Shown here: one piece after another, positions 33,003 to 50,201 of the stretch
Numbering within the stretch: position 1 is the stretch's first letter
Layout: each line of letters begins with the position of its first letter
Origin: Gammaproteobacteria bacterium
GTDB taxonomy: Bacteria > Pseudomonadota > Gammaproteobacteria > Pseudomonadales > Pseudohongiellaceae
NCBI GenBank assembly: GCA_002711845.1
Contig: PASF01000002.1
Span: 32,001 to 96,000 of the forward strand
DNA length: 64,000 nucleotides
Direction of reading: 5' to 3'
The notes under the pieces: generated by a model
What the model was told of the DNA's origin: nothing
The model's input: the letters and a program-made list of their open reading frames with translations, nothing else
The model's database searches: none
Translations under genes and position numbers: made by a program

Positions 33003-35774
33003 ATGCCATCCGCCAGCCCCCTGATCCTGATTGATGGATCCTCCTACCTGTTTCGTGCCTTTCATGCTCTGCCGCCACTGGTCAGCAGCCGGGGTCAGCC
33101 GACCGGTGCCATCAAGGGCGTGATCAGCATGATCCGCAGCCTGAAAAAGGAATACCCGGACAGTCCGGTGGCGGTGGTGTTTGACGCCAAGGGCAGCACC
33201 TTTCGCAATGACATTTACCCGGACTATAAAGCGCATCGCCCGCCCATGCCCGATGAGCTGCGTAGCCAGATAGACCCCATCCACCAGATTATCCGGGCCA
33301 TGGGCCTGCCTCTGCTGGTCGTCCCCGACGTCGAAGCGGATGATGTCATTGGCACGCTGGCTGCCCAGGCCAGCAAACAGCAGCGTGACACGCTGGTTTC
33401 CACTGGCGATAAGGACCTCGCCCAGTTAGTGACCGATCACGTCACACTGATCAACACCATGACTGGAGAGCGCCTGGACCCTGAGGGCGTGGTCAACAAA
33501 TTTGGCCTGCCACCGGCACGCATAGTGGATTTTCTGGCGCTGACCGGCGACAAGGTCGACAACATCCCCGGTGTCCCCAGTGTTGGCCCCAAAACCGCGC
33601 TCAAATGGCTGCAGACCTATGACTCTGTCGAGAACCTGATTGCGCATGCTGACGACATCGCTGGCAAGGTGGGTGAGAAGCTGCGCGACAACATTGAACA
33701 GCTGCGGCTGTCCTATGAGCTGGCGACCATCAAACTGGACGTGACGCTGGCGTTATCGTTGGACGAACTGATCCCCGGTGAGGAAGACCAGACCCAATTG
33801 ATGGCCCTGTTCACTGAGCTGGAGTTCAAGACCTGGGTCAAGGAACTGGACAAAGCTGGCGTTGCCGTTTCCGCCACTGCCCTGGCGGCCGTGCAGGAAG
33901 AACTGGGCAGCACGCCGGCGCCCGAAGGCGAAGACGCGTTGGGTGATGAACAACTCGATACTGACGAGGAACATTACGAACTCATCAACGATGAAACGGG
34001 GCTGCGGCGCTGTGTGGGCGCGATCAAGGCGGCAAAACAGACCGCGATCGCGTTGCTGATGACTGACGAGCACTATATGTTGTCACAGGTCATTGGCCTG
34101 GCATTCAGCTGGCAACCCGGGCAGGCCGTCTATATTCCACTGGCGCATGACAGCCTGGAAGCGCCGTCAACCCTGGATAGACGCACCACCCTTGCCGCGC
34201 TCAAACCGATCCTGGAAGATCCGCTGGTGCGCAAGGTGGCACATGACACCAAGCGGCTGAGCCATATTCTGCAAAATCATGACATCCAGGTCGGGCGCTG
34301 GCATTTTGATACCCACCTGGCGGCTTATGTGCTCAATTCGGTAGCGACCAATCACAGCGTAGAAGATGTCAGCGCTTACTATCTCCATAGGCGTCTGGAT
34401 TCAAGGGATGTGCTGACCGGTAGTGGTCGCAACAAACTGGCACTGAGTCAGTCAGACCCGGCGGCAGCATTGGCCTGGCTCGGGCCGCAGGTCGATTCGG
34501 TGCTGCGACTGAGTCATCTGCTGGCCTCCCAGCTGCGCAAAACCGGTGAGCTGGACGGCCTTTATCGTTATTACGAACTGGCGCTGGCACCCGTGTTGCA
34601 GCGTATGGAGCGCCATGGCATTGCGGTCGACCCGGAACTGCTGCACAAACAGTCACAGGCGCTGGCGGCGCGTCTGGGCGAGGTCGAGGAAGCAGTCTAT
34701 GCGCTTGCCGGTGAAACCTTCAATCTTGGGTCGCCCAAACAACTGCAGGTTATCCTGTACGAAAAAATGCAATTGCCAATCCTCAAGAAGACACCCAAAG
34801 GCCAGCCTTCCACGGCGGAACCGATTCTGCAGGAACTGGCGCTGGAGTATGAGCTGCCCAGCATGATCATGGAGCATCGGGGCCTGAGCAAGCTCAAATC
34901 CACCTACACAGACAAGTTGCCGGCCCAGCTCAATCGCAGCACCCAGCGTATCCACTCAACCTTCCAGCAGGCCGTGGCGGCCACCGGACGTCTGTCATCG
35001 ACCGAGCCCAATCTGCAGAACATCCCTATCCGCAGTACCGAGGGGCGCAAGATCCGCCAGGCCTTTGTGGCAGCCCGCGGTTACAAACTGGTGGCCGCCG
35101 ACTATTCACAGGTTGAATTGCGGATCATGGCGCACCTGTCGCAGGACAAGGGATTGCTCAATGCCTTTGCCAACGCTCTGGATGTTCATAAAGCCACCGC
35201 CGCAGAAGTGTTTGGCGTGGCCCTTGACGAGGTCACCGGCGAGCAGCGCCGCCGCGCCAAGGCCATCAATTTTGGCCTGATCTACGGCATGTCGGCGTTT
35301 GGTCTGGCCAAGCAGCTGGGCATTGACCGTCATGACGCGCAGCAATACGTTGATCGTTATTTTGAGAAATACCCCGGTGTGCTTGAGTATATGGAGCGGA
35401 CCCGCGAGCTGGCTGAAACGCAGGGTTATATCGAAACGCTGTTCGGACGCCGGCTTTACCTGCCTGATATCAAGGCTGGCAATGGCATGTTGCGCAAGGC
35501 CGCGCAGCGCACGGCCATCAACGCCCCGATGCAGGGGACGGCAGCGGATATCATCAAGCAGGCGATGGTGGACATAGACCACTGGCTGGGCACCGGCGTG
35601 CTGGATGCAAGGCTGATCCTGCAGGTGCACGACGAACTGGTGTTTGAGGTGGCCGACGCGGATGTCGCGTTGCTCAGCGATGGCGTGCGTTTCCGCATGG
35701 CCACCGCTGCGGCGCTGGATGTGCCGCTAGTCGTTGACGTCGGCGTCGGGGACAACTGGGATGAAGCCCACTGA
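33003..35774 (+). CDS. polA: DNA polymerase I with a degenerate proofreading domain
   Basis: PolA fills gaps and removes RNA primers. Domains are the 5' nuclease (about residues 1-290), the 3'-5' exonuclease fold (about 315-515) and the polymerase (about 515-923). The polymerase motifs are intact: [55 protein letters not shown] and [10 protein letters not shown]. The exonuclease metal ligands are not. Where E. coli has FAFDTETD, QNLKYD and YAAED, this protein has IALLMTDEH (about 347), HDTKRL (about 414) and WLGPQ (about 492). ATG 33003 gives [21 protein letters not shown]. The end overlaps convergent engB by 48 bases. Confidence 0.96.
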
Positions 35775-38009: not shown

Positions 38010-40112
38010 ATGGTTCACCGGATGCAAGAGGGCGAAGAAGCGCTGCGCTGGAAACGCAAGTTTCTTGATGCACTGGAAGACCACGAGCAGCGCGAGAAGT
38101 CACTCAGCAACCGCATACGCTTGCTACGCCGGGGTCTGCTCGGCGTCAGTCTTGCCGGCGACGGCAGCGACCCGGTCCTCGACAAACAGCTGACCCAGCT
38201 GCGCAGCACGCTGCGCAACGATGATCGGGAGACCGGTCTGGAAGCGTTGCTGGAGCAGATCGAAAAATCCATTATCCGTCTGGATACAGAAAAAAACGCC
38301 AGTACCTGGGCACTGAAACAGGCTTTTGAAAGCAGCCTCAGGGAACTCGAGCAGGTTCCCCTCCCCGGCCCTTCACGGCGCCAACTAAAAAAATTCTCTC
38401 GCAGCCTGTCGACCCGCCTGGAAGATCCGCAGCAGCACACCGGGTTAATTCGTCAATTTATCGAACTGCTCAGCGAGTCAGTGCAGGCTCTGCGTTTGCA
38501 GGAACAGGAACACATGGGTGCGGGTCAGGCCAGCACCGGTCTCTGGCAACGCCTGTTCGGCAGCAGCGACACCGCCCCGGCCGCACCCCCGGCGGGTAAA
38601 GAGCCCTCAGCGGGTAAAGAACCCTCAGCGGGTAGAGAGCCCTCAGCGCACAAAGAGCCCTCAGCGGGTGGAGAGCCCTCAGCGCACAAAGAGCCCTCAG
38701 CGGATAAAGAGCCCTCAGCGCATAAAGAGCCCCCCGCCCCCCACCAAGACCACGCCCTCACCGGCGAGCTCATGGACCGCGACGACGCGCCGGCCGCTGA
38801 CCACCTCAAAGTCCGTCTCGAGAACGAGCAGGAAACCGACGAAGAACCCCGTTTCGACAACGACCAGAATGCCCTCAATGCAGCGGCAGCCGTCCATAAA
38901 ATCAGTGGTCGCGCCACTGACCTGCAGGATAGCGCCCTGCGTCAGCAGCATGCCAAGCTCGACCCCGAGGACAGCGAGGATATTGAGGGCGAACTGATAC
39001 GTGATGGCTCCGGCCTGGCCGAGCCGGCGTTCTCTTTCATCGCGGGCCATGTAGAACCACTGCTGCTCAGAATTCTGGAATCCATTCACATCACCGGCGA
39101 ATCCGTGAAACTGGCCGACTCCATTCGGCGTCACATTCTTAAAGGGCTCAACTGGTATGAATTTGTCGCTGTCCTGGAAGAAATTCTGCTGATCCTGCGC
39201 AGTGCTGCCGATGATCAGCGACTGGAATTCCAGGACTTTCTGACGGAAGTTAATGAAAGCCTGGCGCAGGTCTCGGCCTTTGTTGACACCTCTCGCAAAC
39301 ATGCCGATCAAAGCGCTGCCAACGAAGCGGCGATGGACGCCAGGGTGCGTGAACAGATACGGGGCATTGGCAATGCCGTCGCGAACGCCGATGCCGATCT
39401 GGACACGCTGAAAGTGAGTGTCCAGTCACAGATCGGTGCTATCATAAACTCGCTGGACAGCTTCAAGAACCAGCGTCAGCAGCAGGACGATGGCATGACC
39501 CAGGACATGCGCCTGCTGATTGAGCGCATCGGTGCCCTGGAGACCGAATCCAGGGAATTACGCCTGCACCTTTCACAGCAACAGCAAAAAGCGCAAACTG
39601 ACACCTTGACCGATCTGCCCAACCGGGACGCTTACAACCAGCGCCTGCGCAGTGTCCTGGATGACTGGCGCGACGGCGCCAGCCATGAACGACGCGACGA
39701 CGACCGGGCCTTGTGTCTGGCAGTGGCCGATGTCGACCACTTCAAGCATATCAACGATACCTATGGTCACCTGGCGGGCGACAAGGTGTTAAAAATTATC
39801 AGCAAAGAACTGGTGTCACGATTACGGGACAGCGATTTTGTGGCGCGCTACGGCGGTGAAGAATTTGTGTTGATCATGCCCAATACACGGCCTGCCGACG
39901 CCGAACACGTGCTTAACAAGGTACGTGAGGCCATAGCCAACATACCCTTTCATTTCAAGGAGCAGCAGTTGAAAATCACCGTGTCGTTTGGCGTCACGGA
40001 TGCGCTGCATGACGATGGACCGGAGTCACTGTTCCACCGGGCTGACAGCGCACTGTACAAAGCCAAGGCTGACGGCCGGAACCGTGTGTGCAGGCACCGG
40101 CATGATGACTAG
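38010..40112 (+). CDS. DgcH-like diguanylate cyclase with hexapeptide-repeat linker
   Basis: This protein makes cyclic di-GMP from two GTP. The C-terminal GGDEF domain begins at about residue 530 with DTLTDLPNRDAYNQRL. It has the active loop RYGGEEFVLIMPNT and an intact inhibitory RxxD site (RDSD) five residues before GGEEF. The long N-terminal part is helical and probably cytoplasmic, with no membrane segment. A low-complexity linker (about residues 195-242) holds eight AxKEPS-type hexapeptides. Position beside dsbA, cytochrome c4, engB and polA matches dgcH (PA5487). ATG 38010 or 38022 could be the start. Confidence 0.9.
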   Translation: MVHRMQEGEEALRWKRKFLDALEDHEQREKSLSNRIRLLRRGLLGVSLAGDGSDPVLDKQLTQLRSTLRNDDRETGLEALLEQIEKSIIRLDTEKNASTWALKQAFESSLRELEQVPLPGPSRRQLKKFSRSLSTRLEDPQQHTGLIRQFIELLSESVQALRLQEQEHMGAGQASTGLWQRLFGSSDTAPAAPPAGKEPSAGKEPSAGREPSAHKEPSAGGEPSAHKEPSADKEPSAHKEPPAPHQDHALTGELMDRDDAPAADHLKVRLENEQETDEEPRFDNDQNALNAAAAVHKISGRATDLQDSALRQQHAKLDPEDSEDIEGELIRDGSGLAEPAFSFIAGHVEPLLLRILESIHITGESVKLADSIRRHILKGLNWYEFVAVLEEILLILRSAADDQRLEFQDFLTEVNESLAQVSAFVDTSRKHADQSAANEAAMDARVREQIRGIGNAVANADADLDTLKVSVQSQIGAIINSLDSFKNQRQQQDDGMTQDMRLLIERIGALETESRELRLHLSQQQQKAQTDTLTDLPNRDAYNQRLRSVLDDWRDGASHERRDDDRALCLAVADVDHFKHINDTYGHLAGDKVLKIISKELVSRLRDSDFVARYGGEEFVLIMPNTRPADAEHVLNKVREAIANIPFHFKEQQLKITVSFGVTDALHDDGPESLFHRADSALYKAKADGRNRVCRHRHDD
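38592..38735 (+). repeat. eight tandem 18-bp repeats inside the diguanylate cyclase gene
   Basis: Eight in-frame copies of an 18-base unit (first copy GCGGGTAAAGAGCCCTCA) encode AGKEPS, AGKEPS, AGREPS, AHKEPS, AGGEPS, AHKEPS, ADKEPS and AHKEPP. The variation is concentrated in codons two and three of each unit, while the GAGCCCTCA part is nearly invariant. Copy number changes would keep the frame. Confidence 0.92.
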
Positions 40113-49076: not shown

Positions 49077-50131
49077 ACCGACAACAGCACGGTGCCGTGA
49101 TGATCATGGTGTTGTGGACCGCTGTGGTGATGACCATTCTGGTCACTGTACTGGCGGCCAACATCCGTCTGTCGGCAACCACGGCCTTTCACAACAAGGC
49201 GGGCAATCAGGATTACGCGGCCGTGATGGCGACCCTGCACAAGGCGGAAATGGAGCTGATGATGGAGCGTATGCAGGTGCCTGTCGGCCAGGAGCTGACG
49301 CTCAACGATGACGGTGAATTCCGCATCCCGGCCTACCGTTTTAATGGCCAGCCACTGACCCTGAACTATGCCGCTGACGACGATATGGTGGTGCGTATCT
49401 ACGACCACGCCGGCAAGATAAATCTCAACCGGATGGAGCGCGACCGTATGCAGCGGATTATCGAAAAACGCCTGGGTGAAGGGTTTGATCCGCGCGAGGT
49501 TCAGGCGTTGCTGGCGGCCTGGGAAGACTGGACCGACCTTAATTCCCTGCTCACGCCAGGTGGTGCGGAAGACGACTATTACCAGTCTCTGGAGACACCC
49601 TACACGGCGCGCAACGTGCCCGAGTTTGACACGGTGGAAGAGCTGCGCCTGATACGCGGGTTTGATGAGCTGTTTGCCGATGTGAATCTTGAGGCGGCAT
49701 TTACCATTTACGGGACCGGATCCGCGGTCAACCCCAACCTGGCCAGTCGGGAGGCTCTGCGGCTGTTGCCCGGGCTGGATGACGACCTGGTTGAGGAGAT
49801 CATTGCCCACCGTGAGCAGACGGACTTCCGCGCGATCCGGGAGGTGGGTGAGATTGTGCCGCTGGAGGGCATGGTGGAACTGTCGCCCTGGCTGGGCTTC
49901 AATACCTCCAGTTTCTATTCGGTGTACGCCTATCCGGCGCGGGACAACAACAACGACGGTGATGCAGGAGACAATGCCGTCCAATCGCAGGATCCGGTTG
50001 CCGCTGATCCGGTGCAGCAGGCAATGATGCAGATCATGGAGGTGCGCTCATTCAACAACCGCGCACGCATCTACCAGGTCAACCCCTACGCGCGTTTGCC
50101 CGACACCACACCCGCCCGCATCGACCGATAG
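49073..50131 (+). CDS. gspK: type II secretion minor pseudopilin GspK
   Basis: GspK caps the pseudopilus tip. It has the atypical prepilin start of the family (QQHGAVMIMVLWTAVVMTIL) without the usual Glu+5. A large alpha domain follows the first strand: VRIYDHAGKINLNRMERDRMQRII, then LLAAWEDWTDLNSLLTPGGAEDDYY and the VNPNLASREALRLLPGLDDDLVEEII helix-hairpin-helix-like segment. The length of 352 is normal. It is the last gene of the operon, and its stop codon lies in the first copy of a tandem repeat. Confidence 0.9.
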   Translation: MNRQQHGAVMIMVLWTAVVMTILVTVLAANIRLSATTAFHNKAGNQDYAAVMATLHKAEMELMMERMQVPVGQELTLNDDGEFRIPAYRFNGQPLTLNYAADDDMVVRIYDHAGKINLNRMERDRMQRIIEKRLGEGFDPREVQALLAAWEDWTDLNSLLTPGGAEDDYYQSLETPYTARNVPEFDTVEELRLIRGFDELFADVNLEAAFTIYGTGSAVNPNLASREALRLLPGLDDDLVEEIIAHREQTDFRAIREVGEIVPLEGMVELSPWLGFNTSSFYSVYAYPARDNNNDGDAGDNAVQSQDPVAADPVQQAMMQIMEVRSFNNRARIYQVNPYARLPDTTPARIDR

Positions 50132-50201
50132 CCCTAAGCGCATTTGAAATAGCCCTAAGCGCATTTGAAATAGCCCTAAGCGCATATAGATAGCCCTAAG
50201 A
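50128..50201 (+). repeat. tandem 21-bp repeat at the 3' end of the gsp operon
   Basis: ATAGCCCTAAGCGCATTTGAA occurs at 50128 and 50149, then a variant copy at 50170 (20 bases) and a truncated one at 50190. The first copy includes the gspK stop codon. The array fills most of the gap between the convergent gspK and ABC transporter genes. No open frame or terminator is visible in it. Confidence 0.9.

Follow-up and report, generated by a model that had tools for sequence, protein, structure and literature searches.

The window, the whole stretch of 64,000 nucleotides that was analysed, comes from a genome (G000) that belongs to Pseudohongiella, and its forward strand carries polA, the gene for DNA polymerase I (Pol I). 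The open frame begins with an ATG at 33003, its stop codon ends at 35774 and it codes for 923 amino acids plus the stop; the frames on either side look putatively znuA-like and engB-like. Scores far above the cut-off were obtained for two NCBIfam Pol I equivalogs, and Pfam returned a complete Pol I, in agreement with the first-pass annotation, which had placed a Pol I gene at 33003–35774. In a genome-wide profile search this protein was the sole PF00476 match and is thus the only A-family polymerase of the genome. Elsewhere in the window, a tandem array of 18-base units at 38592–38732 (7.8 copies; a 36-base period was scored as well) lies inside a GGDEF-like frame and codes for a KEPSA-rich repeat, and a 21-base tandem repeat with 3.5 copies lies at 50128–50200.

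Three domains are joined in one chain, which is the PolA1 architecture: a 5'-3' exonuclease/flap endonuclease domain (PF02739 and PF01367; 33021–33788, forward strand), a vestigial 3'-5' exonuclease domain equivalent to E. coli residues 324–517 (PF01612; 33957–34538, forward strand) and a polymerase domain (PF00476; 34635–35765, forward strand). The catalytic residues of the first and last are intact, with the polymerase carboxylates D705, D882 and E883 and the 5'-nuclease set of Asp residues in place. Nineteen positions that we take to be functional sites, nine in the polymerase and ten in the 5'-nuclease domain, are identical to E. coli, which bears out the earlier statement that these motifs are intact; the same 19 residues are identical to E. 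coli in 90 of 90 distinct exonuclease-altered sequences longer than 850 aa, including that of L048 and those of family f36 described below. The PF01612 match of the window protein is weak, at 33.9 (hmmscan) to 37.7 bits; intact relatives score 122.7–139.7 bits (n = 11) and one fragment (G045) scores 90.3.

The exonuclease site of the window protein

A phmmer alignment of the window protein with the Klenow fragment is gap-free over residues 323–923. In exo I (34050–34058, forward strand), A350 stands in place of D355 of E. coli and L352 in place of E357. Exo II (34242–34271, forward strand) has H414, D415 and K417 at E. coli positions 419, 420 and 422, L419 in place of D424, and H421, a newly fixed histidine, at 426. 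Exo III (34476–34490, forward strand) runs from W492, where E. coli has Y497, to Q496, where it has D501. A second newly fixed histidine, H357 (34071–34073, forward strand), occupies E. coli position 362. The E. coli enzyme, with the same three domains in the same order and 52% identity over the Klenow part (Foldseek), keeps D355, E357, D424, Y497 and D501, whereas the window protein keeps none of them: the active DEDDy set (D355, E357, D424, D501 and Y497) reads A, L, L, Q and W. A DnaQ-like domain that is retained while its DEDDy ligands are replaced places the protein among Pol I enzymes with an inactivated 3'-5' exonuclease. The first-pass annotation had read the three motif changes correctly (FAFDTETD to IALLMTDEH, QNLKYD to HDTKRL and YAAED to WLGPQ), and the alignment to E. 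coli that it proposed upholds its claim that metal-binding positions are altered in all three. None of the four metal-ligand carboxylates is left, and, judged from the sequence, the proofreading site can no longer bind two metal ions.

An AlphaFold2 model built from 34 sequences (mean pLDDT 89.2, pTM 0.66; most ten-residue blocks of the exonuclease region at a pLDDT of at least 90) offers no structural rescue by other acidic residues. The strand at 346–353 of the model carries A350 and L352, and Foldseek ranked Klenow (1d8y) first, M. smegmatis Pol I fourth, Taq fifth and Bacillus Pol I ninth. Positions are given below in E. coli numbering.

Reach of the loss in the family and order

We searched 119 genomes of Pseudohongiellaceae (family f1), of which 112 matched at E 1e-80 and 111 were readable, meaning that at most one of the four ligand positions was missing; those with at least two missing, such as G003, were dropped. 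Counted over all four positions, no ligand is kept in 21 of the 111 genomes, one in 89 and two in one. E357, which the window protein lacks, is kept in 89, D355 in one and D424 in one, and position 501 has no Asp in 110 and is a gap in one. The survey of relatives suggested by the first-pass annotation thus found the site lost in 111 of 111 readable family genomes. Together with the gap-free alignment and the open frame in the window, this leaves next to no credence for the idea that a misalignment, frameshift or assembly error conceals an intact site.

The site is also lost in 22 of 22 genomes of family f6 and in 2 of 2 of family f7. Outside these three families, 92 of 100 readable genomes keep all four ligands. 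Family f36 is mixed, with 30 of its 37 genomes among these 92 and seven (genera g44, g115 and g114) having lost the site; the seven losses and one fragment that retains its three visible ligands make up the remaining eight. Among the other families of the order, 41 of 43 are intact in all genomes read (mostly one genome per family, with f45 outside the count); of the other two, one is the fragment and one the mixed family. The earlier remark that such a loss would be unusual in a gammaproteobacterium therefore fits the sampled families, with the amendment that the loss is family-wide. On the aligned residues, it is firmly assigned to the whole of Pseudohongiellaceae and is common to two further families, and hence is older than the genus. 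A named MAG, L048, has lost the ligands as well, and its neighbour in the tree, L068, has not.

The residues left behind vary between groups. The single carboxylate that is kept is E357 in most Pseudohongiellaceae and D424 in seven rows of f6 (genus g97; L242, L243, L245, L246, L248, L249 and L251), and the f36 losses (L195, L274, L276 and L341–L344) show a pattern that differs in part. In L147 (genome G028, Pseudohongiellaceae), the polA region aligns to that of its relative L028 at 93.5% DNA identity, but the alignment opens 23 gaps in 3603 columns and the polymerase half of the L147 gene is broken up into several frames; the probable cause is a faulty assembly, not a real pseudogene.

For the trees, residue mapping and pairwise distances, a site was scored as lost when it had no Asp at 355; L008, which keeps D355 and has lost the other three ligands, is thus filed as intact in the pairwise distances. 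A tree of 113 rows built without the exonuclease domain (G rows under 780 aa left out) needs four changes, in f1+f7, f6, L048 and the f36 subset, and still needs four when only its best supported branches are counted. A single f1+f6+f7 clade is not rejected (AU p 0.42, 88 rows), nor is that clade plus L048 at the 0.05 level (p 0.096). The trees point to at least two losses in the order, one in a possible f1+f6+f7 clade and one in the f36 subset, and perhaps to four. A tree of the exonuclease domain alone unites all dead rows and was set aside as attraction of fast-evolving rows.

Rates and constraint in the dead domain

Relative to the polymerase domain, the dead exonuclease domain evolves about twice as fast as the intact one. 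Among pairs whose polymerase domains are 75–95% identical, drawn from sequences longer than 850 aa, the median ratio of exonuclease to polymerase p-distance was 2.64 in 761 exonuclease-dead pairs and 1.35 in the 97 pairs that were filed as intact; the corresponding ratios of the 5'-nuclease domain were 1.36 and 1.26. Within the genus, where many dS values were saturated, dN/dS of the exonuclease domain was 0.04–0.16 for the pairs that allowed an estimate of dS; it was 0.03–0.19 in intact exonuclease domains of other groups, which overlaps the range of the dead domain. The relaxation is visible in the exonuclease/polymerase ratio of the same pairs. Values of 0.04–0.16 mean that most changes in the dead domain are still removed by selection, and its median length is 190 residues, compared with 192 for intact domains. 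These comparisons describe a domain that has been kept at full length, changing fast yet under purifying selection.

Over positions 355, 357, 420, 424 and 501 taken together, all 92 intact genomes have a formal charge of -4; in the 135 exonuclease-dead genomes it is -2 (18 genomes), -1 (94) or 0 (23). Leu361 and Phe473 are said, in the part of the source available (PMC9629493), to assist in seating the 3' end and in melting it. Position 361 is G, A, E, D or S in 123 of 135 exonuclease-dead genomes and L, I or V in 92 of 92 intact ones, and position 473 is L, I, P, R or V in 122 of 135 versus F or Y in 92 of 92.

Other positions have become fixed. We counted parsimony changes in 187 exonuclease columns over 38 dead and 71 intact rows, grouped by family and DEDD state. 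The columns most freed in dead rows include 424 (16 changes versus 0), 358, 486, 494, 355, 357 and 501. The most newly constrained column is 426, with no change in dead and 29 in intact rows (binomial 8e-7), followed by 362, with one change versus 29 (1e-5). Both survive correction for 187 tests; the two positions had first been spotted by eye, and the later scan took in all columns. H426 is present in 135 of 135 genomes of f1, f6 and f7, compared with 37 of 92 intact genomes, H362 in 127 of 135 compared with 1 of 92, and D420 in 125 of 135 compared with 0 of 92. D420 is not universal, being absent from both f7 genomes and carried among the f36 losses only by two g114 genomes, and K422 is invariant in all 135 dead and 92 intact genomes. 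Because H426 already occurs in 37 intact genomes, part of this "new" set is an old residue that has become fixed.

Neutral decay, in which the domain slides toward loss and its conserved residues are kept by chance, would agree with an exonuclease domain about 2.6 times as divergent as the polymerase domain and with ligand positions that vary freely. Purifying selection persists, however, the median length is that of a complete domain, and 362 and 426 vary less than they do in intact enzymes; we therefore hold decay alone to be very unlikely. The column counts show that constraint has moved: the dead site has not plainly decayed but carries a different set of residues that is now fixed.

Related polymerases, cell context and interpretation

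Loss of Pol I proofreading is already known in other bacteria. Like the window protein, H. pylori Pol I lacks D355, D424 and D501 and retains the 5'-nuclease and polymerase, and the purified enzyme is reported to show no 3'-5' exonuclease, to extend mismatches and to bypass lesions (PMC3121766, seen in part). Because an enzyme lacking these residues had no proofreading activity, we strongly infer by analogy that it is absent from the window protein too. H. pylori belongs to another class of bacteria, and the same partial source describes it as having no translesion polymerases, whereas two DnaE matches and a single Y-family match were obtained in G000. In the accessible part of a reverse-transcriptase preprint (PMC12776460), the full DEDD set is noted for only five of the 22 bacterial Pol I enzymes that were shown to copy RNA.

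Partial likenesses exist elsewhere. In Bst, Val319, Ala376 and Lys450 stand in place of metal ligands (PMC13207698, in part); we paired them with 355, 424 and 501 through the Anoxybacillus row. Bst has Asp at 420 and Lys at 422, as in the window protein, but its cleft is described there as deformed by a Pro438–Pro441 loop, a difference from the window protein. In a small hand-taken set of non-gammaproteobacterial rows, not a survey, five are from Bacillota: Asp420 occurs in Listeria, Anoxybacillus and Enterococcus and Asn in Limosilactobacillus and Acetoanaerobium, and Lys is found at 501 in all of these except Acetoanaerobium. The same four rows with Lys501 have Asn at 362 and Val at 426, where the window protein has His at both. 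The Prevotella row is intact at the site. M. smegmatis and Tsukamurella have His, Glu, Lys and His at 419, 420, 422 and 426, similar to the window protein, but their exo I and III are too diverged for stable pairing of residues, two alignments giving different results; Tsukamurella has Val at 362, not His. For Tsukamurella and Acetoanaerobium, the two alignments disagree outside exo II. An acid at 420 in exonuclease-dead Pol I of both Bacillota and Actinomycetota would mean that this feature arose more than once. Actinobacterial PolA2/APEX is likewise an A-family polymerase with a dead 3'-5' exonuclease domain, but, as its description goes in the portion available (PMC12926913), it lacks a 5'-nuclease domain and carries a clamp motif in the dead domain. 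The window protein has the 5'-nuclease, and a pattern search of its exonuclease domain found no QxxL[F]-like clamp motif, which sets it apart from PolA2/APEX.

These comparisons bear on whether the dead site has been repurposed, its fixed residues now serving as a non-nucleolytic site for the binding of a metal, a 3' end or a partner protein. That 426 and 362 are the two most newly constrained of 187 columns beside an invariant K422 would suit such a role, as would a report that Bst brings primer ends to its dead exonuclease site (PMC5990039, seen in part) and the clamp motif of PolA2/APEX. Structural compensation for the lost metals accounts for the same shift in constraint, however, the DNA-binding cleft residues 361, 423 and 473 are mostly lost, in contrast to Geobacillus Pol I, whose activity could be restored with the cleft left as it was (PMC5990039, same part), and the pattern search found no such motif in the exonuclease domain of the window protein. 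We regard repurposing as unlikely. A further version, in which loss of proofreading in Pol I leads in general to a rebuilt, fixed site with a new role, marked in this clade by His362, His426 and the acid at 420 beside K422 and holding or testing the primer 3' end uncut, is offered tentatively, as an unlikely proposal; if it were true, extension of mismatched or damaged ends would be a function and not a default.

DnaQ scored above its cut-off in G000, and replicative proofreading is therefore expected to be intact. No substitute for the exonuclease domain was seen: the only other PF01612 match in G000 is a separate frame of 394 codons, which from its size we take to be RNase D. A stand-alone replacement exonuclease was rejected as a candidate, with PF01612 matching at most twice per genome in 37 genomes (not at all in G005); the second match of G036 shares its frame with the DnaQ match of that genome. 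Endonuclease V needs Pol I proofreading in E. coli, and we considered it as a partner lost together with proofreading. Its profile, PF04493, is absent from G000 but present in only 22 of 145 genomes of the order, and the exonuclease-dead genome G200 has a match of 75 bits; because most of the order lacks the enzyme, its absence from G000 is uninformative.

We therefore favour, with a probability of about 0.93, the reading that the window encodes the only A-family polymerase of the cell, a proofreading-dead Pol I gap filler, like that of H. pylori, whose exonuclease domain has been kept structurally with swapped constraints. Such an enzyme would nick-translate and fill gaps without removing its own mismatches, and, by analogy with the H. 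pylori enzyme, would more readily extend ends that are mismatched or damaged; its error rate may plausibly be raised. Replication fidelity would rest on DnaQ. The dead domain may have been retained for its structural part in the Klenow fold, where His362, His426, Asp420 and mostly K, R, Q or N at 501 could hold the emptied metal pocket together without metals.

In the literature searched, where subscription journals mostly fall outside, no title or opening of an abstract describes the loss in the Pseudohongiella lineage or a swapped constraint, although a published survey may list a Pseudohongiella. The loss marks all readable genomes of one gammaproteobacterial family and of two more, within an order in which 41 other families are intact in the genomes read, mostly one per family. 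This allows closely related active and inactive enzymes to be set side by side and joined in chimeras. The constraint swap names residues for testing what a dead nuclease domain still does, a question that extends to the many bacterial Pol I enzymes, about half by one account, in which the active motif is missing.
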